The translations under genes were made by a program, and so were the position numbers. Below, in pieces: positions 10,601-28,573 of a stretch of 64,000 nucleotides of DNA. This DNA comes from Deltaproteobacteria bacterium (GTDB lineage: Bacteria; Myxococcota; B64-G9). Position 1 is the stretch's first letter. Every line of letters begins with the position of its first letter. The stretch lies in the NCBI GenBank assembly GCA_016935365.1, contig JAFGRB010000211.1, positions 1-64,000 on the forward strand. Reading direction: 5' to 3'. The notes under the pieces are model-generated. The model saw only the letters and a list, made by a program, of their open reading frames with translations, searched no databases and was not told the origin of the DNA.

Positions 10601-10667
10601 GTCGGCGCGCCTCTTGGCGGGCGGCCCCGGGCGAGCGCGGCAGGCGTATGACAGTGCGGGAGGAGCG

Positions 10668-12068: not shown

Positions 12069-13375
12069 GACGCTCGGGGAGGTGGCGGACGGAGGCCTGG
12101 ATCCGAGACGAGCTCACGCGCTGTGTACGCTGCGGCAACTGCATGGCGGTCTGTCCGGTCTACGAGTTGCTGCGCGAGGAAGGCGCGGTGGCGCGGGGCA
12201 AGATCGCGCTCGTGGAGGCGCTCGCCGCGGGCGACCTCGAAGACGACCGGCACGCGCGTCATTTCCTGACCGCCTGTCTGCTCTGCGGCCGCTGCAAGAG
12301 CGCCTGCCCCAACGAGGTCGACACACCCGCCCTGGTCCAGTACGCGCGGGCTCGTCTCGCGCGCCGGTCTTGGCTCAAGCGCTGGTCATTGGGCCGCTTG
12401 CTCCCGGCGCAGCGTCTGCTGCCGCGTCTGCTCCGCGCCGCGAGGGCGATCCGGCTTTTGTGGGCGCGGAGGATCCCGGGCTCGAGCGGGCTGCACATCC
12501 GTTTCTCGCGCGGGGCCGACGGCCAGCGCAGGCGGATCCCGCCTCTGGTGCGGCCCTTTTTTCTGGATCGCGATCACCCTCCGCCCAAAGGCGAAGGGCC
12601 CGAGGTGGCCTTCTTCGTCGGCTGTGTGCACAATTACATGCGGCCCGAGTCGGCGCAGGCGGCCATCGATGCGCTCAGCGCGCTGGGTGCGAGGGTGCAC
12701 GTGCCTGCCGGTCAGGCCTGCTGCGGGCTGCCGGCCTGGGGCGCAGGCGAGAGCGAAGGCGCCCGCAAGCTCGCTCGCCGCAACCTGGAGGCGCTCGCAC
12801 CGGCGGGCGAGATGCCCGACTTCGTCACGTCCGTGTGCGCCTCGTGCGCATACATGCTCCGCTTTCACATGCATGAGCTGCTCGAGGCAGAGCCGGGCCT
12901 GGCCGAGCGGGCCCGGATGCTGATGAGCAGGGTGCTCCCCTTCTCAATGCTCTGGTCCCGGCTGGCGGGCTTGGACCGGGAAGGTGCTGGACGGCAGCGC
13001 AATGGCTCGCTGCTGACCTACCACGACCCCTGCCATCTCTCGCGGGCCTTCGGGGAGAAGGCCGCTCCGCGTTTTCTCCTGACGCGGCTTCGCGACAGGC
13101 GCTTCGTGGAGATGTCCCATCCATGTCGCTGCTGCGGGCACGGGGGCGTGTTCAATCTCGCCCATTTCGAGCTCTCGGCCGCCATGGCCCGGGACAAGGC
13201 GCGCAGGGTGAGGGAGAGCGGTGCGAGCGTCGTGGTCACCGAGTGCTCCGGCTGCCTCTTGCAGCTGAGCGAGGCGCTGGCGCAGGCAGTGCCGGCTGTG
13301 GAGGTCTGGACGACCGCCGAGGCGCTGGCCAGGTGCGGTGTCGAAGAAGCCGATCTCGGGCAGGGAGAGGATTGA
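12065..13375 (+). CDS. GlcF-type Fe-S oxidoreductase with two CCG domains
   Basis: 436 residues. GTG at 12065 overlaps the GlcD stop (GTGA). Two 4Fe-4S motifs lie near the N-terminus, CVRCGNCMAVCP and CLLCGRCKSACP. Two cysteine-rich CCG domains follow, the first with CCGLPAWGAGE and the second with CRCCGHGG plus the downstream CSGC. This is the GlcF/LutA/heterodisulfide-reductase-subunit layout. It likely forms the electron-transfer partner of the preceding FAD subunit, at the membrane or with ETF. An intergenic promoter (13398-13426) separates it from the next gene. Confidence 0.88.
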   Translation: MRRSGRWRTEAWIRDELTRCVRCGNCMAVCPVYELLREEGAVARGKIALVEALAAGDLEDDRHARHFLTACLLCGRCKSACPNEVDTPALVQYARARLARRSWLKRWSLGRLLPAQRLLPRLLRAARAIRLLWARRIPGSSGLHIRFSRGADGQRRRIPPLVRPFFLDRDHPPPKGEGPEVAFFVGCVHNYMRPESAQAAIDALSALGARVHVPAGQACCGLPAWGAGESEGARKLARRNLEALAPAGEMPDFVTSVCASCAYMLRFHMHELLEAEPGLAERARMLMSRVLPFSMLWSRLAGLDREGAGRQRNGSLLTYHDPCHLSRAFGEKAAPRFLLTRLRDRRFVEMSHPCRCCGHGGVFNLAHFELSAAMARDKARRVRESGASVVVTECSGCLLQLSEALAQAVPAVEVWTTAEALARCGVEEADLGQGED

Positions 13376-13480: not shown

Positions 13481-14095
13481 ATGGCAAAAAAGACTTCGAA
13501 AAAAAAGGGGAAAAAGGCCATCAGGCGCGCCGTCAAGAAGGCGGTCAAGGCGGTGAAGAAGGCCAAGAAGAAGACCGGCAAGAAGCCTGCCAAGAAGGCT
13601 GCCAAGAAGCCTGCCAAGAAGGCTGCCAAGAAGGCTGCCAAGAAGGCTGCCAAGAAGCCTGTCAAGAAGGCTGTCAAGAAGGCGGTCAAGAAGGCGGTCA
13701 AGAAGGCTGCCAAGAAGGCCGTCAAGAAGGCCGTCAAGACCGTCAAGTCCAGGCCCAGCCCGAGGAAGGCCGGCAAGGCAGCGCCGACGAGGCCCGCAGC
13801 CAAGAAGCCGCGCGCGGTTCCGTTCTCGCTCGATTCCCGGCTGGCCCGTCAGAAAGATGTGGCCTGGCGCCTGATCGATGGCGAGGCGGTGATCATCACG
13901 CCGGCAGACAGCACCATGCACACCCTCAACGACACGGGCACGCGCATCTGGGAGCTCATCGACGGCAAGCGGACCGTGCGCGACGTGGCCCGGGCCCTGC
14001 AGGCAGAGTTCGAGGTCGAGTCGGAGCGCGCCCAGGATGACGCGCTCTGGTTCGTCGAGTGCCTGGCCAAGAAGGGCCTGATCGAGGGCAGCTGA
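13481..14095 (+). CDS. PqqD-type peptide-recognition protein with H1-like lysine-rich N-terminus
   Basis: 204 residues. Residues 1-112 are almost only Lys, Ala, Val and Pro in KKA-A/V-KK-type repeats, as in histone-H1-like nucleoid proteins. Residues about 123-203 form a complete PqqD domain: WRLIDGEAVIITPADSTMHTLNDTGTRIWELIDGKRTVRDVA followed by FEVESERAQDD and a final helix ending KKGLIE. PqqD domains are RiPP recognition elements that grip a precursor's leader and present it to radical SAM or other modifying enzymes. A precursor-like peptide, a kinase and a radical SAM gene follow at 21.2-24.0 kb. The fusion to a DNA- or polyanion-binding-like tail is unusual. I used ATG 13481, with GAGGG just upstream and the KAAKK region in frame. 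Confidence 0.85.
   Translation: MAKKTSKKKGKKAIRRAVKKAVKAVKKAKKKTGKKPAKKAAKKPAKKAAKKAAKKAAKKPVKKAVKKAVKKAVKKAAKKAVKKAVKTVKSRPSPRKAGKAAPTRPAAKKPRAVPFSLDSRLARQKDVAWRLIDGEAVIITPADSTMHTLNDTGTRIWELIDGKRTVRDVARALQAEFEVESERAQDDALWFVECLAKKGLIEGS
13529..13744 (+). repeat. In-frame KAAKK/KAVKK coding repeat
   Basis: A tract of AAGAAGG-CTGCC and AAGAAGG-C(T/G)GTC units of 12-15 bases encoding the lysine-rich half of the PqqD fusion. Near-identical units make the length prone to change by slippage or assembly error. Confidence 0.8.
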
Positions 14096-14143: not shown

Positions 14144-14194
14144 GGGGGGCACTGAGGGGGCTCTACCGTGCTCCTTGGCGGGAGGTTCGAGATC

Positions 14195-17100
14195 ATGAAG
14201 CTATCGAAAGTGTTGTGGATATTCGGCTTGCTTTCCTTGCTGGGTTCGAGCGCCTGCGATTGCGACGGTGACGCGGAGAACCCGTGTGACTGCGAACCCA
14301 CGATCACCTTCCTCAGCCCGACCGGCGGCGCGTTGACGGAGTTCAACGACACCAACGAGACCGAGGAGGGGATCCAGTACCCGGTTCGCATTCAACTTCG
14401 CTGTGTGCCCGACGGCACGTCCCTGACCTTCACGAACAGCCTCTCGCCGGGTGAGACGGTCCGCCGGGATGTATCCGACGGCGACGGCGATGGAGAGAGC
14501 AGCATCGAGTACGGCGAGCTCACCTTTCTCGACGGAGTCAACCGGATCTGCGTGACCGGCAGCGTCGAGGTCGCCTGGATGGAGGACGGGAGCCTGGGCT
14601 GCTCGACCCGGAGCGTACCCGAACTGGAGATCTGCAAGGACGTGACCGTACAGCTCGGCGTACCGGCTTGCCGTTTCGAGAATCCAGAGGATGGATCCAC
14701 GCTCACACAAGCGGATGACGACGATCCGATCGCGGCCGGCTTCCAGCAGGACGTGGCGGTCGTCTGCAAGGGCGTCGACGATGGACAGGATGTCGAGCTG
14801 AGCATCAACGCCAGGCCGCCCATCACGGGCGTGCTGGCCTTTTCCCGCGTCGACTTCGACAGCGTCGATCTGGCCGAGGGGGCCGATCTTTTGCACCTCG
14901 AGACCCAGGGCCAGGGCGGCGAGAGTGTGATCGCCGAGATCGGAGTGACCGTGGACACGGGCGGGTGCGCGGTCCGGCTAACCCCCATGGGCGGCGTCAC
15001 GTTCCGGGCCGCGGATGACGAGGAGCCCGGCGTCGAGGGCTTGCAGATCAGCCTGACCGTCTCGACCGATCCGGTCGGGGCCTTTGCCTGCGCGGATGGG
15101 AGCGCAGTCCGGGTCATCGTCGATGGACAGGAGTTCCAGGGCGTGCTTTCCGACGGGACGGCCATCGTGCTGGCCACTTTGCCGGACGGTGAGATCGAGG
15201 CCTTTGCCGAGGTGGAGGAGGCGGGTGGACGGACAGGGCGCTCGCTCGTCAATCGCTACTTCGTCTGCGCCTCTCCGGTCGAGGTGTCCATCCTGTCGCC
15301 GAGAGACGATCCCGATCACTCCACGCCCATCACCGATGCGGCGGATCGCGACCCCGCTCCGGGTATCCAGATCGCGGTCCGCGGGAATACCTCCGGGGTG
15401 CCGGACGCCGAGCGAATGTGGCTCAAGCTGGACGAGCGGATCGTCATGGACGGGCTCGATCCGCTTCGCCCGGTGGCCTTCCAGCCGGGCGGGGAGTACG
15501 AGTTCCGCTACCTCTCCTTCCTGCAGCCGGGCGAGCACGTCGTGAGCGTGGAGGGTGAGGACGCGTGCGGAGAGCGGGCCGCGATCAGCTCTACGGTCTG
15601 GGTGGTGACCGCCCAGGTCACCTGCCAGGTGGTGGACCCGGCCGACGGATCTACGCTGCTTGCAGCCGACGACAAGGACGGCGATCCGGATAACGACCTG
15701 CAGTATGACGTCGGTGTGCTGACCGCCAACGTCAGCGGCGGTGGCACATTCGAGATCCTCGTCGACGGCACGACCTTCGGTCCCTTCCCGGTGGACACGG
15801 ACACCCAGAGCGGGATGGGGGAGGTGCGCTTTGTCGATGGTCAGGGCATCAGCGTCCAGTGCCTGCTCTCGAGCGGAGAGGCCTCGCCCACCAACCGGAT
15901 CGATGTGGACGGCCATCCGCCGACGATCGAGATCACGGATCCTGCCGGAGGGGCGACTTTCCAGGATCCTGCTCAGGCGGTGTGCGTAGAGACGACCGGC
16001 GTGGAGAATGGGCAGCTCGTCACCGTGCTCGTGGAGCAGGGGGCGAGCTCGGACAGCGTCTCCGCCAGCATCACCGGCAACCAGGTCTGCATCGGCAACG
16101 TGCCCTGGTTCAGCGGTGCCAACACGGTCACGGCCAGCGTGAGCGATGCGGCCGGCAACCCGGCCGAGAGCACTCCGCTGGATGTGACCTACCAGTCCTG
16201 CACGGCCGAGCCGCAGATCACCTTCATCAACCCGGACCCGACCCCGCCGGTCGAGATATCGAATGCAGGTCCGTACACCGTCGAGGTCGACGTGACCGAG
16301 GTGCTCGACGCGCACGATGTCGAGCTGGTGATCGTGACCAACGGCGTGCCGGCCCAGCCCGTCACCCCGAACCGCTTCGGGGGCGGCCGGGCCGAGTTCG
16401 ACGTCGTGCTCGCCAATGGCAGCATCCAGTTCCAGGTGAGCGCGACCAACTTCTGCGGCACGGGCCAGGAGCAGCTGGATGCGCTCGTGGGCGATCCCAA
16501 CCTCCCGAGCATCGCCATTTCCTCGCCGGCGGACGGCGATTGCTCGCAGACCTCGACCGTGAGCGTGAGCGCCCAGACCACCAACGCCGACTCCCGGGTC
16601 TGCCTGTTCTGCTTCCGGCCGCGCTCGGCCGACGCGATACCCGAGTGCAGCCTGGCCACGCCGGGCTTCTGGACCACGGGTGCGGTCGACGGCGCGGGCG
16701 TGTGCAGCTCCCAGATCGACGCCCAGTTTCCGTCCGAGGGTGACTTCCAGATCTGGGCCAGCGTGTCCAATGACCACGGCAGCTCGACCTCGCCCGCGGT
16801 CGGCTACCGGATCGACGCCACGCCCCCGACGGTGAGCATCGACGAGCCTTCTGCCGGTGCCGTGTTCAACGCGTCGAGCCCCGACGCGGTGCCGGGCGGG
16901 GAGCTTCAGATCCGGGTCGTGGTGAGCGCCGACGTGCGCGACGGGCTGACGGCGGAGCTCACCGGCCACGACGGGATCGGAGACAGCCCGATGCCGGTCT
17001 TCTCGGGTGGGCAGATCACGTTCCAGCGGGTGACCGTGACCGACGGAGACCACAGCCTCGAGGCCCAGGTGACGGACTGCGCAGGCAACACCGGCGCATC

Positions 17101-20100
17101 CATTCCGGTCCAGATCACGGTCGACCGGATCGAGCCGGAGGTCATCGCGCTCGTCCCGGCCGACGGCAGCGCTTTCAGCGTGGCCGGCGACCAGGGCCTC
17201 GGCACGCCGGGCTTCCAGCGCAACGTCACCTGCCAGTTCGCTGCCGGCAGCATCCAGCAAGGCGACGCGCTGAGCCTGACGCGCCAGATCCAGGGGGTGG
17301 ACCCGACGCCGGTCGAGGTGGCCAGCGCCAGCCTCAACGCGGGCGAGACCAGCCGGAGCCTCGGGCTCGTGACCCTGCTGCCGCCTCCGCACAGCCACGG
17401 AAACCTGCGCCTCGTCTGCTCGGTGACGGATGCAGCGGGCAACGCAGGCTCGATCTACTCGGACATTCGGATCGACCTGGACGCCCCCGAAGTGGACATC
17501 ACCCGGCCGACCGACGGAGCGCAGCTCAACCGCTCGTGGGACATGTGCGCCCCGGCCGGCTTTCAGACCCAGGTCAACGTGAGCGTGACGAACATCGAGG
17601 CCGGGGACACCCTCTACCTGTGCGTGTGCGATCCGAGCGGCCCGAGCTCGTGCTCCAACGACGACGCGGGAGCATGCGGGGATGCGGGCTACGGGCGGAC
17701 GGTCACGCCCGGCAGCGTGGGCGGGCCCGGCACGGTGACGCTCAACTGCGTGGACATGCCCCAGGGCGACGTCCGATTGCGAGCCTACGCCGAGAACATC
17801 CCCGGCCAGGGCCAGTGGTCGGCGCCGGTGGCGGTCTACGTGGACTCGCTGCCGCCCACGGTGGCGACGCGGACCATCCTGACAGGCAACGGCGACGACT
17901 GCCTCAACCAGTCCGAGGGCGGCTTGCATGTCCGCCTGACCGTGGACGACCAGGGCAACAGCCTCGACGGGCGCACGGTGCGCCTGTACGAGGACTGGCC
18001 TCCGGGCACGGCGCTGCCCGGCGCGAGCGGGACGGTCGCGGGCGCTACGGTCGATCTGAGCGCCAGCCTGGTCTCCGGTGTGCACGTGCTGACGGCGGTC
18101 TTCTCGGACGCGCTCGGCAACCCCAACATGAGCACATCCCCGCCGATCACCGACCCCAACGCCACCTTCACGGTGACCGTGGATACAGCAGCGCCCGTCA
18201 TTTCCATTTCGAGCCCGAACAAGACCTTGCTGAACCTCTCCGACGACCTGATCTCGGGCGGGGATCTGGACTTCAACTTCTGCGTGAGCTGCTCGGGTGT
18301 CGAGGACGGCCAGGTGGTGACCTTCCTGCCGATGAACGCCACGGCCGCGGTGGCGGACGGCGCGGCCTGCGTGCAGACCTCCATCCCCGAGGGGGACACG
18401 CTGCTCGAGGTCCAGGTGCGAGACGCCTGCGGCAACCCGGAGCCCGGCTGGGCCACCGACCAGCTCGCGGTGCGTGCCGACCTGACTCCGCCTACGATCA
18501 GCTGCAATCCGCCCCCGGCGCAAGACGCTTACTACACGGATACCTCGGTCCACTTCATATGCCAGACCACGGGCACGGATTCGACCCAGCGGATCCAGGT
18601 GGTCTCGACCCAGGGCGGCCCGCGCTGCAGCCCCTACGTGGACGGCTCGGGCACGACCGACTTCTACTGCAACCTGCAGCCCGGGGTCCAGGACCTGGAC
18701 GTCACCGTGACCGATCCGGCCGGCAATGTGTCCGCGCCCTGGCAGAGCACCAATCTGGAGGTCGACATCGCGGGCTGCGACCTGGACGTGCTCGGTTACC
18801 TGCCGGTGGAGATTTTCAACGCCGCCGACGACAAGGACGCGGATCCATCGAACGGCCTGCAGATCGACGTGCAGGCCTGTAGCTCGACCTGCACCGGCAG
18901 CGACGTGCCCACGCCCGTGGTGCGGCTGCGGGTGAGCGGCGGGCTGGTCCAGACCAAGGACCTGGGCGCCGACGGCACGCCCGAGTGCGTGACCTTCTTC
19001 GATGTGAGACTGGACGACGGCGCAGCCGGCGTGGACGTGGAGGCCGAGATCGACGACGGTGGGGGGCACCTGTTCCCCGACGGCTTCCAGGTGGAGATGG
19101 TCGATCTGCTGCCACCGACTCTCGAACGCCTGGCCCCGGGCGAGGACGACGTGCTGTGCGTCGCCAGCCAGGGCAACCCCTCGGCCAACGGCGTGGACAT
19201 CCTCGCCGACCTGTCGACCGGTGCGCCCTGCAACATGGCCTTTGGCTTCCGGGTGACCGACGGCGGCGATCCGACCTACCCGGGCAGCCTTTCGCTGCGC
19301 GAGGGCGCGGACACCCGCGCGGGCCCGACCAGCATCACCGGCGTTCCGTCCCAGAACGTGAACTGGCCCAACGTGGCCCTGACCCACAATGCGAGCCATG
19401 CGCTGCAAGCCGTGGCGACCGACTACGCCGGCAACCCGAGCGTGATCGATCTGAGCGTGATTGCGGACGTGGTCGCGCCGGGCACGGTCAACGCCAGCGC
19501 CGCACTGGAGGACGAGCTGGTCGATCCCGCGGCCAGCCGCCACGCGGATGTGCTGGTGAGCTGGAGTGCGGTAGGCGACGACGGCGCGGACGGCACACCT
19601 GCGGGCTACGAGGTCCGCTACGCCACCGCGCCGATCAGCAGCGAGGCCAGGTGGCAGACCGCGGTGCCCGTCTACTCGGGCCCGAGCACCAGCCCGCCGG
19701 TCTTCGAGGGCTGGCCGCCGCTCAACACCTACTCCATCGCGGTCCGGGCCGTGGACGAGGTGGGCAACTACGGCGCCATCCCATCGCTCTCGCTCGCCAA
19801 CTACTGGCGGACTCACACCGTGGTGGCGCCGGGCGAGGGGGGCTACTTCGCCTATGGGCTTTGGAGCATCGGCGACGTGGATCACGACGGCTACGCCGAC
19901 CTGGCGGTCGGCGCGCACACCGAGCTCACGGGCGGCGGTGGCACGGATGGGGGCGCGGTCTACGTGTTCTACGGCCAGGACGACCTGAGCGCCTGGAGCG
20001 CGGGCCAGCGGCTGAGCAACGACACGGCCAGCGAGAAGTTCGGCTCCGACGTGGGCCGCATCGGCGACATCAGCGGGCCCGAGACCTGCGCGGGAGACGA

Positions 20101-21157
20101 CCAGGCCCGGATCGACGACTTGGTCGTCAGCGGGCGAGGGTACGGCAGCGGCCAGGGTCGGGTGTCGATCTACTTCGGCCGATGCCTGGCCAGTCTGCCT
20201 GCGGCGCCCGACATCGAGATCCGCGGCAACGTGGCCGGAGACCTCTTCGGTTACTACTCCGAGATGATCGGCGACGTGGACGGCGACGGCATCGACGACC
20301 TGCTCGTCAGCGCGCCGACCGCGAGCGCCGCGGGCAATGCTTATCTCTTCTTCGGGCGCTCCCAGGCGGACTGGGTGGCGGATAGCGGAGGAGACCGGGT
20401 GCTGTCCGCATCGGATGCCGATGTCGTGATCGTGGGCCGGGACGCGGAGGACTGGTTCGGCTACGCGAGCGGGATCAGCACGCTCGGCGACCTGGACGGT
20501 GATGGAATGTCCGAGTTCATCGTCGGTGCCAGCTCGGTCAACGACGCCTTCCTCTTCGATGGCCAGACCATCTATCTGGAGACCCAGACCGGCGACGGGA
20601 CGGCATACGCGGCTGCCGACAACCTGGCCATCTTCCACGAGGGTCCAAGCGGCATGTACAGCGGCTGCGATCCATACTACTTCTGCGTGGGTTTCGGCAA
20701 CCGCGCGGTGGGCAACGCGGACTTCGATCACGACGGATTGCCCGATCTGGCAGTTGCCGCCGCCTACTTCGAAAAGGTATACTTGTATCCCGGGGTGGCC
20801 GGAGGAGTCGACGATGTCGCTTTCAAGACGATCAACTCGACCGAGGGAAGCGTGTGGTTGGGTTGGGAGCTCGTCGTCGAGGATGTGAACATGGATGGCT
20901 GGCAGGACATCGCGCTGGGCACGAACACCTCGAACGGCCACAAGGCCATCTTCTACCTCAACCGGGGGAGCGCTCCCGAGTACTTCGGCAACTCACCGGA
21001 CATCGTCTTGAGCGAAGACAGCGAGTACTACGGGATTTCGATCGCGGTGGACGACTTCGACAGCGACGGATTGCCCGACGTGATCATCGGGAGCAACATC
21101 GCGGTCGACGCGGGTGGCGGTGACATGCGGGACGGGATGTTCTATCTGCACTACTGA
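14195..21157 (+). CDS. Giant surface lipoprotein: Ig-like repeats plus FG-GAP propeller
   Basis: 2320 residues from ATG 14195, with GGAGG 9 bases upstream (GTG 14168 would add nine residues). The leader ends GSSAC with Cys21, a lipobox. More than ten Ig-like/cadherin-like modules follow, many starting P-x-I-x-I-x-x-P and carrying an ADDxD...GxQxDV signature. A fibronectin-III-like segment comes next. The last ~450 residues contain FG-GAP/integrin-type calcium loops such as DVDHDGYADLAVG, DVDGDGIDDLLVS, DLDGDGMSEFIVG, DFDHDGLPDLAVA and DFDSDGLPDVIIG. An extended adhesin-like or matrix role on the cell surface is inferred. It lies between the PqqD fusion and the precursor-like peptide on the same strand, 46 bases before the latter. 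Confidence 0.85.
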   Translation: MKLSKVLWIFGLLSLLGSSACDCDGDAENPCDCEPTITFLSPTGGALTEFNDTNETEEGIQYPVRIQLRCVPDGTSLTFTNSLSPGETVRRDVSDGDGDGESSIEYGELTFLDGVNRICVTGSVEVAWMEDGSLGCSTRSVPELEICKDVTVQLGVPACRFENPEDGSTLTQADDDDPIAAGFQQDVAVVCKGVDDGQDVELSINARPPITGVLAFSRVDFDSVDLAEGADLLHLETQGQGGESVIAEIGVTVDTGGCAVRLTPMGGVTFRAADDEEPGVEGLQISLTVSTDPVGAFACADGSAVRVIVDGQEFQGVLSDGTAIVLATLPDGEIEAFAEVEEAGGRTGRSLVNRYFVCASPVEVSILSPRDDPDHSTPITDAADRDPAPGIQIAVRGNTSGVPDAERMWLKLDERIVMDGLDPLRPVAFQPGGEYEFRYLSFLQPGEHVVSVEGEDACGERAAISSTVWVVTAQVTCQVVDPADGSTLLAADDKDGDPDNDLQYDVGVLTANVSGGGTFEILVDGTTFGPFPVDTDTQSGMGEVRFVDGQGISVQCLLSSGEASPTNRIDVDGHPPTIEITDPAGGATFQDPAQAVCVETTGVENGQLVTVLVEQGASSDSVSASITGNQVCIGNVPWFSGANTVTASVSDAAGNPAESTPLDVTYQSCTAEPQITFINPDPTPPVEISNAGPYTVEVDVTEVLDAHDVELVIVTNGVPAQPVTPNRFGGGRAEFDVVLANGSIQFQVSATNFCGTGQEQLDALVGDPNLPSIAISSPADGDCSQTSTVSVSAQTTNADSRVCLFCFRPRSADAIPECSLATPGFWTTGAVDGAGVCSSQIDAQFPSEGDFQIWASVSNDHGSSTSPAVGYRIDATPPTVSIDEPSAGAVFNASSPDAVPGGELQIRVVVSADVRDGLTAELTGHDGIGDSPMPVFSGGQITFQRVTVTDGDHSLEAQVTDCAGNTGASIPVQITVDRIEPEVIALVPADGSAFSVAGDQGLGTPGFQRNVTCQFAAGSIQQGDALSLTRQIQGVDPTPVEVASASLNAGETSRSLGLVTLLPPPHSHGNLRLVCSVTDAAGNAGSIYSDIRIDLDAPEVDITRPTDGAQLNRSWDMCAPAGFQTQVNVSVTNIEAGDTLYLCVCDPSGPSSCSNDDAGACGDAGYGRTVTPGSVGGPGTVTLNCVDMPQGDVRLRAYAENIPGQGQWSAPVAVYVDSLPPTVATRTILTGNGDDCLNQSEGGLHVRLTVDDQGNSLDGRTVRLYEDWPPGTALPGASGTVAGATVDLSASLVSGVHVLTAVFSDALGNPNMSTSPPITDPNATFTVTVDTAAPVISISSPNKTLLNLSDDLISGGDLDFNFCVSCSGVEDGQVVTFLPMNATAAVADGAACVQTSIPEGDTLLEVQVRDACGNPEPGWATDQLAVRADLTPPTISCNPPPAQDAYYTDTSVHFICQTTGTDSTQRIQVVSTQGGPRCSPYVDGSGTTDFYCNLQPGVQDLDVTVTDPAGNVSAPWQSTNLEVDIAGCDLDVLGYLPVEIFNAADDKDADPSNGLQIDVQACSSTCTGSDVPTPVVRLRVSGGLVQTKDLGADGTPECVTFFDVRLDDGAAGVDVEAEIDDGGGHLFPDGFQVEMVDLLPPTLERLAPGEDDVLCVASQGNPSANGVDILADLSTGAPCNMAFGFRVTDGGDPTYPGSLSLREGADTRAGPTSITGVPSQNVNWPNVALTHNASHALQAVATDYAGNPSVIDLSVIADVVAPGTVNASAALEDELVDPAASRHADVLVSWSAVGDDGADGTPAGYEVRYATAPISSEARWQTAVPVYSGPSTSPPVFEGWPPLNTYSIAVRAVDEVGNYGAIPSLSLANYWRTHTVVAPGEGGYFAYGLWSIGDVDHDGYADLAVGAHTELTGGGGTDGGAVYVFYGQDDLSAWSAGQRLSNDTASEKFGSDVGRIGDISGPETCAGDDQARIDDLVVSGRGYGSGQGRVSIYFGRCLASLPAAPDIEIRGNVAGDLFGYYSEMIGDVDGDGIDDLLVSAPTASAAGNAYLFFGRSQADWVADSGGDRVLSASDADVVIVGRDAEDWFGYASGISTLGDLDGDGMSEFIVGASSVNDAFLFDGQTIYLETQTGDGTAYAAADNLAIFHEGPSGMYSGCDPYYFCVGFGNRAVGNADFDHDGLPDLAVAAAYFEKVYLYPGVAGGVDDVAFKTINSTEGSVWLGWELVVEDVNMDGWQDIALGTNTSNGHKAIFYLNRGSAPEYFGNSPDIVLSEDSEYYGISIAVDDFDSDGLPDVIIGSNIAVDAGGGDMRDGMFYLHY

Positions 21158-21203
21158 GGTATCGATCCGGTTCTTCGCGAGGACGGATCTGCAGGAGGTG
21201 GCC

Positions 21204-21353
21204 GTGAAGGCGGAAGAAAAACGCAGGATGCCCTACAAGAAACCGAGACTGGAGTCGAAGGTCATCCGGATGATCATGCACACCTACTCAACGACCGTGA
21301 GCTCCATCGGGAGATACGGTCCCTTCCGGGAGTCACCGAGGCGCGAGCCCTAG
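21204..21353 (+). CDS. Candidate RiPP precursor peptide (49 residues)
   Basis: A small gene starting at GTG 21204 behind a strong GCAGGAGGTGGCC ribosome site and ending 4 bases before the kinase gene. The N-terminal part is charged and contains PYKKPRLES (Y11-x-x-P14-x-L16). The YxxPxL pattern is the leader motif bound by PqqD-type recognition domains in lasso-peptide precursors. The C-terminal part, roughly residues 20-49, contains HTYSTTVSSIGRYGPFRESPRREP. This offers Ser/Thr for a kinase and Arg37, Arg42, Arg46 and Arg47 for an arginine methyltransferase. Gly36 and Glu43 are spaced for an eight-residue lasso ring, but no lasso cyclase gene is in the window. Coding status is inferred from ribosome site, motif and context. 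Confidence 0.68.
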   Translation: MKAEEKRRMPYKKPRLESKVIRMIMHTYSTTVSSIGRYGPFRESPRREP

Positions 21354-21357
21354 ACCT

Positions 21358-22080
21358 TTGCACAGACCTTTGCTTTTTTCCTTCCACGCCTGTGGACTAC
21401 CCTGCGAGCTTCATTGCGGGCCGTCGCTCGATGAGGCGGTTGCCTTCATGCTGGCGCCGTTTCGCGTCGCCATCTCCGGCGGCTACCAGCTGGATCTGAT
21501 ACGGGATCCCCAGACCGAAACGGAGCGCGTTCGCACGCTCGGCCGGAGCGCCACGCAGATCCAGCTCGGCCTGGGCAGCGACAGTCCCGCCCTGGTGTCG
21601 GCTGCGCTCGGCATGCTGCTCGTCCACGCCCTGGGACAGAACGGGGGGCTGCTGCTGCACGGCGCTTTCATGCTGCGAGATGACAGGGCTTTTCTCTTCC
21701 TCGGGCGGAGCGGCGCGGGCAAGTCGACCGCAGCGCGAAACGCTCGAAGCCTGATCTGTCTCCACGATGACAAGGTCGCGGTGCGATATGTCCGCGGATG
21801 CTGGCGGGCGTTCGGTGTGCCGATGCTCGACAACCGGGGACGGCCTGGAAAGCCCGGCAGCGCGCCGATCGATGGCCTGTATTTCGTACGCAAGAGCGAT
21901 ACGCTCGATCTGGTCGAGCTTCGGGGGGCCGAGGCGGTTGCCGAGCTCGCCGAGAATGTGATTCTACCGGCCGAGTACCGGCATCGCCGCGTGTTCGAGA
22001 CGGTCATGGCGCTCGCCGGGGAGGTTCGCTCGAGCTTGCTGCGCTTCACGAGAGACTCCCGGATCGATTCGCTTCTATGA
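21358..22080 (+). CDS. HPr-kinase-like (HprK-related) P-loop kinase
   Basis: 240 residues. LLLHGAFM, the Walker A motif GRSGAGKST (116-124) and LHDDKVAV follow the pattern of HprK C-terminal kinase domains. Such kinases occur in RiPP clusters, including those that phosphorylate a serine on lasso-peptide precursors (PadeK/ThcoK type), and in the PqqD-associated HPr-rel-A type systems. No PTS HPr gene is nearby, so a peptide substrate is more likely than HPr. TTG 21358 is the first possible start after in-frame stops and leaves 4 bases to the precursor gene; ATG 21448 would drop a conserved-looking N-terminus. The next gene starts inside its stop (ATGA). Confidence 0.78.
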   Translation: MHRPLLFSFHACGLPCELHCGPSLDEAVAFMLAPFRVAISGGYQLDLIRDPQTETERVRTLGRSATQIQLGLGSDSPALVSAALGMLLVHALGQNGGLLLHGAFMLRDDRAFLFLGRSGAGKSTAARNARSLICLHDDKVAVRYVRGCWRAFGVPMLDNRGRPGKPGSAPIDGLYFVRKSDTLDLVELRGAEAVAELAENVILPAEYRHRRVFETVMALAGEVRSSLLRFTRDSRIDSLL

Positions 22081-23990
22081 CAGACGCGATGCTCACAGAC
22101 GAGCCCCTTTTCCGCTATCGGACAATCACGCTGCTCCCGAGCCTTCTCTGCAAAGCGCGCTGTCCGCACTGCTGTATTCCGCTCGAGATGAGGACGAGAG
22201 ACGACTACGATCCGCGCGTGATCGAAGCTATCTTCTCGTCGATGCCGACGGGCCTGCGCTCGGTGACGCTCTCGGGCGGTGAGCCCTTCGACGCGCCCGA
22301 GCGCCTGCTCGCCCTGGTTCGGCGCGTCTCCGATTCGGGATGCGACTGTCACGCGGTCACGAATGGGCGATGGATTGAAGACCCAGCACGAGGTAGGGAG
22401 TTGCTCGCGGAGGCTGCGCAAAGAGGTCTTGCGGGGCTTGCGCTGAGCGTGGACGCCTACCGCGAAATGCTGTCGCTGGAGTCGGTGAGCAGCCTGGTGC
22501 GCGATTGCCAACGGCACGGAGTGGAGATCGTATTCAAGGGCGTCGGGAGAGCATCTCGGCGGATGATCGAGCGCTACTGTGATGCTGCGGGGCTCGATTT
22601 CGACCTGGCCGTCCAGTCGATCTCCGACCTGGAGCGAGCTGGAACCGCAGCGAGCCTCCGCGCGGATCGGATCGGGGGGCCCCGGGGCGAGGGGTGCTTC
22701 CATGTCGCGGAGCCCGCGATCTACATGGACGGAAGCGTGCTCATCTGCTGCTCGGTTCATCTGTTCCAGGGCTGCGATGCCCTGCTGCTCGGGCGAGTCC
22801 TGGACGAGCCGCTCGACGCGATCCTGGATCGGGCCAGTCGCGACTTCCTGCTGGCCGCCTTGGCCTTTCTCGGCCCTCGGGCGTTGCGGTGGCTCGCGGG
22901 CAGGCGTGCGATGCCCGGGCGTAGCAGCTGCCGGGTTTGCATGGCCACGCTGGGAGATCCGGCGCTCGTGGCCGCCGCGCGCCGGAAGATCGCCGGCGAC
23001 CGGGCGCTTCGCAGGGATCTTGCAGGCCGCAGCATGCTGTTTTCACACTTTCTGGACCGAGAGATCCAGCAGGAGCCCATTGCGAGCCGCTACGCGACCG
23101 CCCAGGAGCACCAGCGCCTGCTGGCAGACGAGCTGCGTACCGGCGCATATCGGAAAGCGATAGAGTCGGTCGTACGGCCCGGAGACACGGTGCTGGATCT
23201 GGGCTGCGGTGTGGGGATCCTGGCGCTGTTTGCAGCCCGGGCGGGGTGCCGGCGGGTGATCGCGGTCGAGAGGGAGAGCATCATCGACCAGGCCCGCGAG
23301 GCCGCACGGCGGGCTGGCCTGGCAGAGAAGATCGACTTCGTGCAGCAGGACGCGATGCGGCTCGAGCTCGATGCGCGCGCGAGCGTACTGGTGCACGAGC
23401 AGATCGGCTGTTATCTGTGGGACGAGGGTCTGGTGCCCAAGCTGGCTCGCGCCCGCAGGGACCTGCTCGAGCCGGGTGGGCGCATCTTGCCCTTCCGGAT
23501 CGATCTCTTCCTGGCGCCCTGCGCCCACCGCTCCGAGCTCGAGGCCGGCTTGGACTTCTGGGCCGAGCCTCGCTATGGCTTCGACTTCCGGCACATGGCG
23601 CAGCGCCACTTCGCCGAGCTCTCCTGGAAGGCCGGCCGGCCGCTGGTGATCGAGCTCGACGACGAGTCCTGCTTTCTGGCCGAGCCTGCGCTCGTCCACA
23701 GCATGGACCTGCGCGCGGAGTACATCACGCCGGACAGGATCGAGGCGCGCTTTTCGCTTCAACCCGGGGCCGAGTGCACCGGCATGTGCGGCTTCTTCCG
23801 CGTCCAGCTCACCGAGACGATCTCGTTCTCCACCGGCCCGAGGCCCGGCCCCAACAACTTCGGCCAGATCTTCATCCCCTGCGCGCGGCGGATCCGAGCG
23901 CCGCAGGGGGGCGAGCTGCGATTCGTGCTCTGCCCCGCACGTCTCCCCGAGCACTGGCGCTGGGAGTTTCAACTGCAGGAGGCCTCGTGA
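22077..23990 (+). CDS. Radical SAM/SPASM-like enzyme fused to a PRMT-like methyltransferase
   Basis: 637 residues. The N-terminal radical SAM domain has CKARCPHC (Cys25, Cys29, Cys32; CX3CX2C) and LSGGEP (66-70). A SPASM-like Cys set follows (Cys207, Cys224/225, Cys233, Cys285, Cys288). Residues about 335-637 match protein arginine methyltransferases. EHQRLLADELRTGAYRKAI is followed by SAM motif I VLDLGCGVG (372-380), a double-E loop with Glu441 and Glu450 (HEQIGCYLWDEG), and a C-terminal barrel. In that barrel the usual THW position reads NNF. The inferred role is radical modification and N-methylation of the nearby peptide. Starts in an ATGA overlap with the kinase gene and ends in a GTGA overlap with the next. 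Confidence 0.85.
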   Translation: MTDAMLTDEPLFRYRTITLLPSLLCKARCPHCCIPLEMRTRDDYDPRVIEAIFSSMPTGLRSVTLSGGEPFDAPERLLALVRRVSDSGCDCHAVTNGRWIEDPARGRELLAEAAQRGLAGLALSVDAYREMLSLESVSSLVRDCQRHGVEIVFKGVGRASRRMIERYCDAAGLDFDLAVQSISDLERAGTAASLRADRIGGPRGEGCFHVAEPAIYMDGSVLICCSVHLFQGCDALLLGRVLDEPLDAILDRASRDFLLAALAFLGPRALRWLAGRRAMPGRSSCRVCMATLGDPALVAAARRKIAGDRALRRDLAGRSMLFSHFLDREIQQEPIASRYATAQEHQRLLADELRTGAYRKAIESVVRPGDTVLDLGCGVGILALFAARAGCRRVIAVERESIIDQAREAARRAGLAEKIDFVQQDAMRLELDARASVLVHEQIGCYLWDEGLVPKLARARRDLLEPGGRILPFRIDLFLAPCAHRSELEAGLDFWAEPRYGFDFRHMAQRHFAELSWKAGRPLVIELDDESCFLAEPALVHSMDLRAEYITPDRIEARFSLQPGAECTGMCGFFRVQLTETISFSTGPRPGPNNFGQIFIPCARRIRAPQGGELRFVLCPARLPEHWRWEFQLQEAS

Positions 23991-24940
23991 GCGCCTCGGT
24001 GGCCAGGGAGAAAGGCATCGAGAAGCGTGCGGGCGGGGATGAACCCCGCCCCTACGATGCCAGGGAGCCCTTTGTGATCCTGCCGGACGAGGCGGGCGTG
24101 CTGCTCTCGGATCCGGGACTGCTGCAGCTCGCGGACGAGCTCATCGCAGTGGGCGCTTGCATGGAGCCCGAGCTCCTGTGCGGGGACAGGCTCGAGCTGG
24201 AGCGCGTCGAGCGGGTGGAGCCGGGCTGGATCGCGGTCTTCGAGTGGCAGGGAAGGTTGTATGCCCATCGCGTCACCCGGGTTCGCGGGCGGCGATTCTG
24301 GGCGAGCGGCGACTCGCACCGGGGCGAGCAGGGGCCGGTGGACATGGCCGCGCTGCGGGGCCGGGTCGTGGCGGTAAGGCGCGATGGCGAGAGGCAGCGG
24401 ATAGCCAGTGGACTCGCGGGCCGGATCCGGGGCGGGCCGATCAAGGAGCTTCGTATGCTGGTCCAGCGCCACGCGAGCCTGCGACGGCTTGCAGAGAAGA
24501 TCCTCGGCAGTCCGGTGATCCAGATCGGCCTACGAGCCTGCCTGGGTGGGGTGCGTATCCAGGCGGAGCGCGATCCGGATCGGCTGCTCGCCATGGCCAC
24601 CTCGGCCGGCTTTCGGCTCTCGGAAGATCGGGTGCGGGAAGGGCAGATCAGAGCTTGCAGTGCGTGCGCTCGCCGGGCGAGCCGGCTAGGCTGGATCGTG
24701 GGCTGCGAGATCGAGCCGGACGCCATCGCGGCGCGGCTCTTCGTCCGCCCGCTCGCCCGGGGGCTGGGCTTGCAGCCGCAGCTTGTCAGCAGGCTCGAGG
24801 AGGTCGCCCAGCACGCCGGGCGCGGGTACTTGCTGCTCGCAAGTCCGACACCGGGCTACAGGCCCTTGCGCGAGGCCGAGCGCCGGAAGTGGCAGGGGCT
24901 TGACGGTGAGGGCTGGACGGTGAGGGAGATGACGAGATGA
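23987..24940 (+). CDS. S24/S26 peptidase-like protein with altered nucleophile and GNAT-like tail
   Basis: 317 residues from GTG 23987, which overlaps the previous stop and has CAGGAGG upstream. Residues about 50-130 resemble the S24/S26 (LexA/signal peptidase) core: GACMEPELLCGDRLELERV, AVFEWQGRLYAHRVTRV, ASGDS and a closing GRVVAV. In the canonical G-x-S-M-x-P box the serine is Cys58, and no obvious catalytic Lys is seen (HRVTRV, His94). Residues about 200-310 faintly resemble a GNAT acetyltransferase (ARLFVRPLARGLGLQPQL...A..AG.GYLLL). Either a modified leader peptidase or a non-catalytic binding domain is possible. Coupling to the radical SAM gene suggests a role in peptide maturation. 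Confidence 0.6.
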   Translation: MSASVAREKGIEKRAGGDEPRPYDAREPFVILPDEAGVLLSDPGLLQLADELIAVGACMEPELLCGDRLELERVERVEPGWIAVFEWQGRLYAHRVTRVRGRRFWASGDSHRGEQGPVDMAALRGRVVAVRRDGERQRIASGLAGRIRGGPIKELRMLVQRHASLRRLAEKILGSPVIQIGLRACLGGVRIQAERDPDRLLAMATSAGFRLSEDRVREGQIRACSACARRASRLGWIVGCEIEPDAIAARLFVRPLARGLGLQPQLVSRLEEVAQHAGRGYLLLASPTPGYRPLREAERRKWQGLDGEGWTVREMTR

Positions 24941-26649
24941 GGTCTGCGGTCTTGTTGCTTTCGATTCTGCTCGCGGCCTGTGATGGCGAATCGATCGAGC
25001 TGGTCCTGGATTCCGACTTCAAGCTGCTGCGCCACGACCTGAAAGACCCGGGGCGCTACGAGCAGGCCCTGAGCCTGCCTCCGACCTGGGGCCGAGCAGG
25101 CCGCTGGTTGCCGGATGCGAGGCCGTGGCAGCTGCTGCCCACCGGGACCACGCGCGCCCCTGGCCAGGCGAGCGAGATCCGCGTCCAGCTCGTCCTCGAT
25201 CCAGCGGCGGGCAGCTTGACGGGCCGTGCGGAGCTTGTGCTGGGCTCGGAGGACGAGGACATCGCCAGGGTCGAGCTGCTGCTCTCGGCCGCGGCCATCG
25301 ACGAGCTCGATGCGCAGGCGCCCGATGCGAGCTTCGAATACCGGCAGGGCCGGCTGATCATCTCGCCCACGAGCCCCGTGCCGGCCGGCCAGAGCTGGCC
25401 CATCGCGGTGGAGTGGCACGACCAGGACATCGAGCTCTACGTGGACGACTTTCCCGAGCAGGGCGGACGGGTGCTCGCCAACCGCCTCTCCGCCGAGGGC
25501 TCCTTCTTCAGCTACGGCTACTGGTACTGGCCCGTCTTGATCGGCCAGGCGCGCTTCGAGGGGATCGAGATCGAGGTCACCTTTCCCGACTCGATGACCC
25601 TGGTGCTGCCAGGAGAGCTCGTCGGATCGCAGGCGAATGCGGACAGCACGCGGAGCGAGCGCTACCGCTTCGACACACCGCATCAGGGCGTGATCCCGCT
25701 CGCCTTGGGCTCATACGAGCAAGTGGCCGGCGCCTGTGGAGACGCCGTGCTCGAGCTTTACGCCCTGCCGGGCTCCAGCTCCGACGGCTACCCGATCGTG
25801 CCGGCCACCTACGTGCCGATCCTGGAGGCCATGTGCGAGGACTACCGGTCGCGATTCGGCGAGCCGGCCTTCGGGGTCTTGCGCTTTGCCGGTGTGGACG
25901 AGGCGTTCGAAAACGGCTTTGCCGGACCGGGCTTGACCCTGGTGCCCAACTACGTCTGGGACGATGACGGCAGCGGCTCGTTCATCAAGCGCGACTTCTA
26001 TCTGGCCCACGAGCTGTCGCACACCTGGTGGGGCAACGAGGTCTTCGTGGGCGCCTCGCGAGACCTGTGGCTGCTCGAGGGCATGGCCGACTACTGCGCG
26101 GCCAGCTGTCTCACGAAGCTCCAAGGCGAGCAGGCCGGCAGCTGGACCTGGCGCTGGGAGGTGCAGCCGTTGCTCGAGCACTACACTGCGGGTGGCGCGG
26201 ATCACCCGCTGGTGCCCGACGAGGCCATCGACATGGAGCCGCGCATCTACTACATCAAGGGCGCCTGGGTCCTCAGGATGCTCGGTACGATCATGGGCGC
26301 GGAGGATCTCGATCGGCTCTTGCTGGAGATCCAGGACGCGCACGCCTTCGATGAGCTCGAGACGGAGCAGCTCACCCAACGCGCTGCCGAGATCGCCGCC
26401 GAGGACCTGGACTGGTTCTTCGAGCAGTGGTTGCGCGGCACGGGCATCATCTCAGTCCGGGAGGAGCACCGCGGTTTGGATGGCGACCGGCTGGAGTGCA
26501 CGGTCACCCAGCGTGCCGTCTGGGCCACCGGGCCAGAGCGCTACTTCCAGATGCCCATGGACGTCAAGGTCGAGCATCAGGGCCGAGAGCACCAGGAGAC
26601 GGTCTGGCTGGAGGGCGTGCGCGCGGTCTTCGAGCTGCCCGTGCCCTGA
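24937..26649 (+). CDS. Lipid-anchored M1-family metallopeptidase
   Basis: 570 residues. The leader ends LLAAC with Cys15 (lipobox), so the enzyme should sit outside the cytoplasmic membrane. Zinc ligands are His358 and His362 in HELSHTWWG with Glu359 as base, and Glu381 in LLEGMADY, the M1 spacing of about 19 residues. FENGFAGPG (324-332) sits where aminopeptidases have GAMEN. An ATGA overlap with the S24/S26-like gene means it is translationally coupled to the putative RiPP cluster. It could trim the exported product or simply be a co-expressed scavenging aminopeptidase. Confidence 0.83.
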   Translation: MRSAVLLLSILLAACDGESIELVLDSDFKLLRHDLKDPGRYEQALSLPPTWGRAGRWLPDARPWQLLPTGTTRAPGQASEIRVQLVLDPAAGSLTGRAELVLGSEDEDIARVELLLSAAAIDELDAQAPDASFEYRQGRLIISPTSPVPAGQSWPIAVEWHDQDIELYVDDFPEQGGRVLANRLSAEGSFFSYGYWYWPVLIGQARFEGIEIEVTFPDSMTLVLPGELVGSQANADSTRSERYRFDTPHQGVIPLALGSYEQVAGACGDAVLELYALPGSSSDGYPIVPATYVPILEAMCEDYRSRFGEPAFGVLRFAGVDEAFENGFAGPGLTLVPNYVWDDDGSGSFIKRDFYLAHELSHTWWGNEVFVGASRDLWLLEGMADYCAASCLTKLQGEQAGSWTWRWEVQPLLEHYTAGGADHPLVPDEAIDMEPRIYYIKGAWVLRMLGTIMGAEDLDRLLLEIQDAHAFDELETEQLTQRAAEIAAEDLDWFFEQWLRGTGIISVREEHRGLDGDRLECTVTQRAVWATGPERYFQMPMDVKVEHQGREHQETVWLEGVRAVFELPVP

Positions 26650-26815: not shown

Positions 26816-27091
26816 ATGTGGTACCGGGTCGTGAGAATTCTCTGTCTTGCCTTGCTCGTGTCGTTCGTCCTGGTCGGCTGTGCTGCGATGGAGGATCCCG
26901 GAGACTACGACGGCGTGTGCTATGACTGCCGGACGGTCTGCTTCGGGTGCACGGATCAGGTTCTGGATCTATGTCTGGGTGATTGCCACGCATGCCAGGG
27001 CTACTCGGACTGCTTTGGCTGGCTGGAGAACCGCTACGATGGCATGCAGCTGGTGATGGCAGACTGGCTGGCTGTCGACTGCGACCGCTGA
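26816..27091 (+). CDS. Small Cys-rich lipoprotein
   Basis: 91 residues, with TAGGAGG before the ATG. The signal ends VLVGC (Cys22). The mature chain has regularly placed cysteines: CYDCRTVCFGC, then CLGDCHACQGYSDC and a final C. The pattern suggests a disulfide-rich or metal-binding fold outside the cell. It is unlike any family I can name. A sigma-54 promoter lies directly upstream, so expression is probably tied to an enhancer-binding regulator. Confidence 0.78.
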   Translation: MWYRVVRILCLALLVSFVLVGCAAMEDPGDYDGVCYDCRTVCFGCTDQVLDLCLGDCHACQGYSDCFGWLENRYDGMQLVMADWLAVDCDR

Positions 27092-27697: not shown

Positions 27698-28573
27698 CTA
27701 CTCGGGACGCGCCTCGGCCGGCATGAGTGTGAAGTGGGGGAACACGCCGCTGTAAGGCCCGGGCGGCTCGCGGGTCAGGCGATGTCCCGTGGCCTCGGCC
27801 AGGGCGTGGATCTCGGCCCGGGTGAAGTAGTGGCCGAAGCCGGCGCGCGAGATCACGTGGTCGCCCGGGTGGGGCCGGGTGCGCGCGGGCGCGCCTGGGT
27901 GCAGGCGGCGGCCGATCTCCCAGCCGAGCCGGAAGGCTCGCGAGCGGTGGATCTCGGTGTCATCGCCTCGCATCCAGACGCTCGCCAGGATCGGCCCCCG
28001 GGGGCAGAGAGCTCGAAGCGCGATCAGCAGTCGCCTCCGCTGCTCCTCGCCGGCCACGTGGGTGAGGCTCCCCCAGCCGAGCAGCACGCCGTCGTAGGGC
28101 GCATGCGCTCTGATCGACTGCGCGAAGCGGAGCTGGCCTCGCGTGTCGGGCTGGGCGAGCGCTTCGTAGCCGCCCTCGAGAAAGGTGAGGCACGCCGGGG
28201 TCTGCAGGCGCTGCGCTGCTTTCCGGACGAAGGCCGGGGCCGGATCGAAGGCCACCAGCTCGTATCCGGCCCGGGCCAAATGGACGAGCTCTCGACCCGT
28301 GCCCGCCCCGCCGATCAGCACGCGGGCGGGCGGGGGGCAGAGATCCGACTCGAGCCAGCTGCGCTCCCAGTCGAACAGGCCCTCTGCGCTGTAGTCGCCC
28401 CGGGACGAGTAGATCTCACCCGTGAGCCTGGAGCAGCTCATCGGATCGAGGCCCGCCAGCGCCATGCCTGCCAGTAGCTCCTCTGTGCGATCGAGCTGCC
28501 TGGAGAGAAAAGACTGCCAGCGCATCAGTCTCTGGAGCGTCGCAACGAGCAGGATCTGGTGTGCGAATGGCAT
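27698..28573 (-). CDS. Class I SAM-dependent methyltransferase
   Basis: 291 residues. SAM motif I is VLIGGAGTGRELVHLARAG, followed by the acidic ribose-binding loop VAFDPAPAFV and a post-motif region with YDGVLLGWGSLTHV. Substrate is unknown. The gene starts 9 bases downstream of the glycosyltransferase stop on the same strand, so the two are probably one operon and may act on a surface glycan. It converges with the HD-like gene. Confidence 0.8.
   Translation of the reverse strand: MPFAHQILLVATLQRLMRWQSFLSRQLDRTEELLAGMALAGLDPMSCSRLTGEIYSSRGDYSAEGLFDWERSWLESDLCPPPARVLIGGAGTGRELVHLARAGYELVAFDPAPAFVRKAAQRLQTPACLTFLEGGYEALAQPDTRGQLRFAQSIRAHAPYDGVLLGWGSLTHVAGEEQRRRLLIALRALCPRGPILASVWMRGDDTEIHRSRAFRLGWEIGRRLHPGAPARTRPHPGDHVISRAGFGHYFTRAEIHALAEATGHRLTREPPGPYSGVFPHFTLMPAEARPE

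Follow-up and report, generated by a model that had tools for sequence, protein, structure and literature searches.

A conserved YxxP-leader precursor peptide gene behind a giant lipoprotein gene in Myxococcota and its candidate non-lasso maturation genes

The window, by which we mean the whole analysed stretch of 64,000 nucleotides of contig JAFGRB010000211.1 (Deltaproteobacteria bacterium, Myxococcota; genome G000), contains a 49-codon open reading frame (ORF) within a row of plus-strand genes (Table 1). An earlier note on this DNA had proposed the ORF as a precursor of 49 residues, and its position and length were confirmed, with a GTG start preceded by AGGAGG. The translation reads VKAEEKRRMPYKKPRLESKVIRMIMHTYSTTVSSIGRYGPFRESPRREP. 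A 2329-codon frame (14168-21157) stops 46 bases before the GTG, and the peptide frame ends 4 bases ahead of the next frame, which encodes a kinase-like protein. The ATG at 21228 is a possible alternative start, yet the Shine-Dalgarno sequence belongs to the GTG. The genes for the kinase-like, radical SAM-PRMT, S26-GNAT and M1 proteins follow each other with successive 4-base overlaps, so that one operon comprising them and the peptide gene is very probable.

Table 1. Features of the peptide locus in the window
Feature	Position	Strand	Basis or remark
PqqD-type RRE gene	13481-14095	+	PF05402 3.8e-19; domain residues 135-201; proposed leader-binding adapter
Giant lipoprotein gene	14195-21157 (start 14168 or 14195)	+	~2320 aa, Ig-like and FG-GAP repeats
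Shine-Dalgarno AGGAGG of peptide gene	21193-21198	+	5 bases ahead of GTG
Precursor peptide gene	21204-21353	+	GTG start, 49 codons
Leader motif YKKPRL (residues 11-16)	21234-21251	+	Tyr and Pro invariant in 14/14 rows
Ser29 (Tyr+18), putative phosphate acceptor	21288-21290	+	column Ser/Thr in 6/6 family peptides
Core YGPFRESPRR (residues 38-47)	21315-21344	+	candidate substrate of radical SAM/PRMT enzyme (putative role)
HPrK/PEPCK-fold P-loop protein, candidate peptide Ser kinase	21358-22080	+	AlphaFold2 model, pLDDT 88.5
Radical SAM domain, EpeE/YydG-like	22077-23090	+	profile A2 vs 8AI1-8AI6, 7.4e-25 to 5.6e-23
Protein arginine methyltransferase (PRMT) domain fused to radical SAM	23091-23990	+	residues 339-637; PRMT6 7p2r 1.5e-28
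Sec11-like S26 peptidase with C-terminal GNAT half, candidate leader peptidase	23987-24940	+	profile A4
M1-family aminopeptidase-like lipoprotein, last gene of overlapping run	24937-26649	+	PF01433 1.3e-18

Judged by sequence comparison, the 49-codon ORF is a real and conserved precursor gene. A protein search of 58 genomes revealed relatives of the peptide in genomes of the same family, and five further peptides were collected there (G007, G005, G001, G008 and G006), each starting with ATG behind a Shine-Dalgarno-like sequence. Y11, P14, S18, P40, R42, P45, R46 and R47 are invariant in all six aligned family peptides, and the core follows the signature [YF][GA]PxR..PRR. Over the 15 pairs of these six peptides (712 codon pairs), the first, second and third codon positions differ 352, 320 and 474 times, respectively. 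The invariant Pro and Arg residues of the core are encoded by differing synonymous codons, as expected for selection on the protein. The earlier note had named missing conservation in related genomes as an argument against its proposal; the ORF turned out to be conserved there.

With a model of the six family peptides, matches reaching at least 7e-19 were obtained in 6 of 195 phylum genomes. These six are all members of the family, in which six of nine genomes were matched and G002 (70% complete), G003 and G004 were not. With a wider model of 14 rows (A8), 30 of the 195 genomes were matched at E<=1e-4, 14 of which had themselves supplied rows to the model. In 28 of the 30 cases the peptide sits 26-299 nt upstream of an HPrK match. 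The two exceptions are G094, where the kinase-like gene is recognised by its own profile, and G007, where the contig ends. Among six weak matches between 1e-4 and 0.01, five without a neighbouring HPrK match were treated as chance and the sixth, in G140, is syntenic.

The gene order is conserved as well and is shared across several families: PqqD-type RRE, giant Ig/FG-GAP lipoprotein, YxxPx[LVI] peptide, kinase-like protein, in some loci a radical SAM enzyme, and a Sec11-like peptidase. In five other genera, the same ORF comes after the giant FG-GAP gene, and in the four with a longer contig it precedes the kinase-like gene. G005, G001 and G008 keep the order PqqD, giant gene, peptide, kinase-like, radical SAM and S26-like, each with an M1-like peptidase gene nearby. 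On the short contig of G006 everything from the giant gene to the S26 gene is kept, and in G007 the contig covers no more than the peptide and the last part of the giant gene. The order also holds in loci outside the family (among them G189, G093, G094 and G128), the reading of G189 extending no further than the giant gene.

A small ORF with the pattern Y..P.[LVIAM] is present in 16 of 16 gaps between the giant and the kinase-like gene versus 97 of 14,837 control windows (random, of equal size and from the same loci), where nine of the 16 gaps were known beforehand to hold one and the count was made after seeing the scan. This set consists of the window and 15 of 36 loci, namely those in which HPrK is immediately preceded by a large ORF. 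The G045, G148 and G049 loci were left out of it although a peptide precedes the kinase-like gene there; in G045, an ORF of 1039 residues lies upstream. In all of six further loci, five of them picked by an A8 match, a YxxP peptide precedes the kinase-like gene and a large ORF lies upstream. Beside the HPrK genes of L215, L216, L232 and L032 no convincing YxxP peptide was detected, and in L227 and L233 the nearest one is 2.8-3.9 kb from HPrK. A chance ORF was considered and is ruled out by the homologue search, the control count of the gaps, the codon pattern and the wider peptide model.

Among the 195 phylum genomes, the kinase-like profile matches 120 (at 1e-6) and the radical SAM profile 16 (at 1e-10). 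A scan of genome contigs based on the kinase found no relative. The scan based on the radical SAM enzyme delivered one close relative, JAAZNF010000103.1 (Myxococcales bacterium AS27yjCOA_137), and its remaining matches are distant radical SAM proteins, the best next at 2e-13 or weaker.

The leader residues YKKPRL match YxxPx[LVI], as the earlier note had recognised, and the PqqD domain that it placed at residues 123-203 agrees with the Pfam match. N-terminal to this domain (13481-13810), the PqqD-type protein has a stretch of Lys/Ala repeats, about 110 residues long and less extended in G001 and G008, that resembles histone H1-like tails. Its profile A5 matches the lasso RRE TbiB1 (3.8e-9), PbaB1 (2.9e-7) and LppB (1.7e-6), and the lasso_PqqD_Bac score of 43 of 80 bits is below the cut-off. 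D75 and F79 are invariant in 7/7 rows and have the spacing of D70 and F74 in LppB, which, according to the available text of PMC13381572, contact the Tyr and Pro of the leader. The giant lipoprotein contains PF01839 (4.4e-28) and PF19077 (5.2e-18) repeats. Its gene lies directly upstream of the peptide in other loci too, and a lipobox was found by script in 17 of 18 homologous giant ORFs, the miss being G132.

For the kinase-like protein, no Pfam family was obtained above the cut-off, and the best NCBIfam name is ScmC (1e-7, 31.6 of 125 bits, below cut-off). HPr kinase and PEPCK have a common fold. The structure model matches PEPCK with Z 14.1 and rmsd 3.6 over 229 of 240 residues; HPr kinase is absent among the fold matches listed by Foldseek and VIA-align, in which PEPCK is present, and this is uninformative either way. 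GxSGxGKST and His101 are conserved in 5/5 kinase-like proteins. On the predicted structure, we regard the protein as having an HPrK/PEPCK fold and as a candidate Ser kinase. The S26-like profile A4 matches SEC11C (2.2e-6) and GNAT (5.1e-5), and by fold the GNAT half is recognised weakly (about 1e-4, low TM-scores). G56, M59, P61, H94 and D109 are invariant in 9/9 rows, and the Sec11-like active site has Cys for Ser here and in four other rows of A7.

The radical SAM domain is most similar to the epimerase EpeE/YydG. The next best solved structure reaches 8e-5, TIGR04078 is matched at 3.3e-11, below its cut-off, and rSAM_yydG scores of 43 and 86 of 300 bits are below the curated cut-off. CxxxCxxC, a CC pair and a late CxxC are present in 8/8 of these enzymes. 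The second Cys of the pair aligns with Cys223 of EpeE, given an inferred offset of 25 residues for the tag, and Cys223 is the proposed H-atom donor in the available text of PMC8326336. EpeE Asp210, which from differing PDB sequences we take to be the residue mutated in the EpeE structures, has no conserved counterpart (E/E/L/S/S in A2). Such a replacement, like the scores under the epimerase cut-off, could mean that the YGPxR core receives a cross-link or some other modification in place of a D-residue, and the core has Tyr/Phe and Arg, which are cross-link partners in other radical SAM RiPPs. We consider this chemistry unlikely, since the epimerase is the best solved structure by far (~1e-24 versus 8e-5) and the Cys222/Cys223 pair aligns.

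A core of the form G[PAG][FYE][RKQ]..P[RP] occurs in 8/8 loci with this radical SAM enzyme versus 0/8 tested loci without it, a count that leaves out G007 (contig ends) and a split that also follows families. A strict link between enzyme and core, an idea raised after this count, was dropped: in G092, the core QGFQRPPPSK occurs in a locus with no EpeE-like radical SAM gene, so that the two are not strictly linked. PRMT-like sequences are found in 75 of the 195 phylum genomes, mostly not near the peptide, and no other genome among the 195 searched has PRMT and this radical SAM enzyme at one place. In G051, a PRMT gene lies about 3 kb from the kinase-like gene.

The closest described system, as far as the available text allows the comparison, is the linear polyphosphorylated peptide (LPP) family of Bacillota (lppAKBSDN; Nat Commun 2026, PMC13381572). 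There, an RRE, an HprK-like kinase and an SpI-like peptidase act on a YxxP precursor; the kinase phosphorylates core Ser3, which corresponds to Tyr+18, and the peptidase cuts after Thr-1, assisted by the RRE. From what this text describes, both systems have in common the YxxP leader with a discrete PqqD-type RRE, an HprK-like kinase and an archaeal/Sec11-type signal-peptidase-like protein (both candidate enzymes here) and no cyclase. In the peptide of the window, Ser29 corresponds to Tyr+18 and Thr27 to Tyr+16. Compared with the LPP leader consensus YxxPxVLxHQxIxFETxxS given there, Y, P and the Ser at Tyr+18 are shared whereas LxHQ and FET are absent, and the leader is one residue shorter between Pro and Phe. 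In the wider set, Ser/Thr is found at index 18-20 in 17/17 peptides, which is a weak sign because three positions are allowed.

The differences to the LPP genes, again by the available text of PMC13381572, concern the NTP transferase and the MsbA-like exporter, which are not linked here (the PF14907 and PF00664 matches of G000 are on other contigs), and the giant lipoprotein, which is present here and is not part of the described LPP core set. No ABC exporter gene was found on the contig of the peptide. LPPs are stated in that text to be restricted to Bacillota, and the terms "radical SAM" and "Myxococc" do not occur in it. New with respect to LPP are the phylum, the EpeE/YydG-like radical SAM enzyme (~1e-24), the PRMT fusion and the linked giant lipoprotein. 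A search of the open-licence PMC literature, with subscription journals outside its scope, found no description of the myxobacterial system.

A plain LPP-type product would be linear, Ser-phosphorylated and leader-cleaved, and the radical SAM and PRMT domains would then act on something else. This agrees with the same leader logic and the same types of RRE, kinase and peptidase, with Ser/Thr at Tyr+18 in all six family peptides and with many relatives that lack the EpeE-like enzyme. However, the radical SAM gene adjoins the kinase-like gene in eight loci with all Cys conserved, conservation of the peptide within the radical SAM-bearing family is highest in the C-terminal core, and the NTP transferase and exporter are not linked, so we judge such a plain product to be distinctly improbable.

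The earlier note had left it open whether the leader motif is reused by another chemistry or belongs to a lasso peptide with a cyclase elsewhere. The system does not look like a lasso system. In agreement with that note, no Asn-synthase-like cyclase was found in the window and no B2 protease adjacent to the peptide. The search for a cyclase in the whole G000 genome, as suggested there, gave one partial Asn-synthase match of 26 bits on another contig, and no full-length PF00733 was found in G001, G005 and G008 (92-98% complete and peptide-bearing; best 27-35 bits). A cyclase located elsewhere is thus not supported. Full-length Asn-synthase matches exist in G002, G006 and G003, split in G007, and G004 has a partial one only; those of G006 and G007 are on contigs other than that of the peptide. 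A linked B2 protease was not detected, PF13471 stretches being weak and 7/8 of them lying in frames of about 500-875 codons. One such transglutaminase-like stretch in the window (41739-42002; 23.5 bits, below cut-off) is 20 kb off in an 875-codon frame.

The eight-residue spacing from Gly36 to Glu43, which the earlier note had put forward as a ring, is correct for this peptide; conservation of the ring was not observed. A Gly-started 8-ring arises in 12% of shuffles of the same core, so the spacing alone means little. Counting rings with Gly as the first residue only, an 8-residue Gly-Asp/Glu ring is possible in 3/9 cores and a ring of 7-9 residues in 5/9, with none in G005, G008, G093 and G094; the cores of G093 and G094 lack any acidic residue. 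Thus, apart from its leader, the system is not lasso-like. In favour of a lasso precursor, with the genes for cyclase and B2 protease at another site or absent from the draft assembly, one could refer to the YxxPxL leader, a PqqD protein closest to lasso RRE models, the Gly36-Glu43 spacing, the 91% completeness of the G000 draft and HPrK-like kinases in paeninodin-type lasso clusters (available text of PMC13381572), yet no full-length Asn-synthase in G000, G001, G005 and G008, the rare 8-ring, the cores without acidic residues and no linked B2 match make it extremely improbable. A lasso peptide was therefore rejected. In contrast, reuse of the leader motif by a different chemistry is supported by the synteny with RRE, HPrK/PEPCK-fold, radical SAM and signal-peptidase-like genes and by the published non-lasso LPP family.

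Further systems resemble the locus in parts. The paeninodin-type phosphorylated lasso peptides share the type of leader motif, the RRE and the HprK-like kinase, but cyclase, B2 protease and a conserved ring geometry were not found here. The SynChlorMet cassette, to which we take the NCBIfam names ScmC, ScmD and ScmF to refer, is similar in that the kinase-like protein is best named ScmC and that PqqD and radical SAM proteins belong to the set; however, the cut-offs are missed (ScmC 31.6 of 125, ScmD 38.2 of 100 bits). With epipeptide EPE (epeXEPAB; YydG/EpeE), which is characterised by D-Val/D-allo-Ile in the product, the locus shares a radical SAM enzyme with CxxxCxxC, the CC pair holding Cys223 and the late CxxC. 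Unlike in EPE, the enzyme is found here together with an RRE, a kinase-like protein and a Sec11-like peptidase, and in one genome it is fused to a PRMT; the precursor is probably not alike; EpeE is reported to be leader-peptide-independent in the available text of PMC8326336. The authors of RRE-Finder remarked, in the available text of PMC7470986, that discrete lasso-type RREs are often not accompanied by lasso genes, about 300 of them occurring with radical SAM enzymes, and such clusters were thus foreseen as a group.

A leader motif together with an RRE, modifying enzymes and a leader peptidase is a typical RiPP maturation set, and the peptide is probably chemically modified. Starting from what the sequences deliver (ORF, conservation, synteny, enzyme families and no cyclase found), we consider it likely that the ORF is the precursor of a non-lasso RiPP-type peptide matured by the linked enzymes. 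We infer the following steps, their order and the lipoprotein link from the enzyme families and the gene order. The PqqD-type protein would bind the YKKPRL leader and present the precursor, and the HPrK-fold protein would phosphorylate a conserved hydroxyl residue, here Ser29. The EpeE-like domain may then act on the core YGPxRExPRR, most likely by Calpha-H abstraction leaving a D-residue, and in G000 alone the fused PRMT domain could methylate at least one core Arg. Removal of the leader by the Sec11-like peptidase would take place near Thr27, and the product would probably be handed to, or work with, the giant Ig/FG-GAP surface lipoprotein encoded upstream.

An unmodified peptide acting as a small partner of the giant lipoprotein, in a structural or regulatory role, would agree with its constant place behind the giant gene in the loci that were read; it is nevertheless very unlikely, as leader motif, RRE, kinase fold, radical SAM and leader-peptidase-like gene together are typical of peptide maturation (available text of PMC7470986). 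Within the preferred reading of an enzymatically matured peptide, one may speculate on a variable peptide, recognised by a lasso-type RRE, that becomes a phosphorylated product with D-residues, Arg-methylated in one lineage and displayed by or bound to the giant lipoprotein, as a peptide-receptor pair with perhaps a function in kin or partner recognition. To this full picture we attach little probability.

With these findings, an orphan-looking 49-mer becomes a testable phylum-wide peptide pathway, and the LPP-like logic might be extended beyond Bacillota. The locus offers a candidate for an EpeE-like enzyme that cooperates with an RRE, as well as a naturally occurring fusion of radical SAM and PRMT domains. 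Each peptide is linked to one giant lipoprotein, and this recurrent pairing opens the role of giant FG-GAP/Ig lipoproteins to experiment.

Other cassettes were observed in the same genomes. On contig C234 of G000 (locus L033, about 9924-12306), a second set comprises PqqD, a SPASM-like radical SAM protein, a peptide and a kinase-like protein. This peptide has a YEPPRI leader and a Gly/Cys-rich core GICKGG...GGGS, ending in EALMGICKGGLGAGPLGPGCSGGPSGCMGGGS; the type recurs in G003, G007, G004, G001, G006 and G002 and, less alike, in G181 and G024. On contig C3 of G000 (locus L032, 9546-14781), subtilase-PqqD-S26 genes are divergent from radical SAM and kinase-like genes, and a small-ORF scan of L032 found no YxxP peptide. 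In the S26-PqqD loci L224, L225 and L239 (G045, G148 and G049), a peptide with Y..PAILWEQPFVALA precedes the kinase-like gene. The pairing of YxxP leaders with kinase-like proteins is thus a general theme of the phylum. Downstream of the M1 gene in the window, a small Cys-rich lipoprotein-like ORF (26816-27091) has a 54% identical counterpart near the G001 cluster, and a methyltransferase-like gene on the minus strand (27698-28573) has a homologue of 48% identity in the G005 cluster, located there between the genes for S26 and M1.
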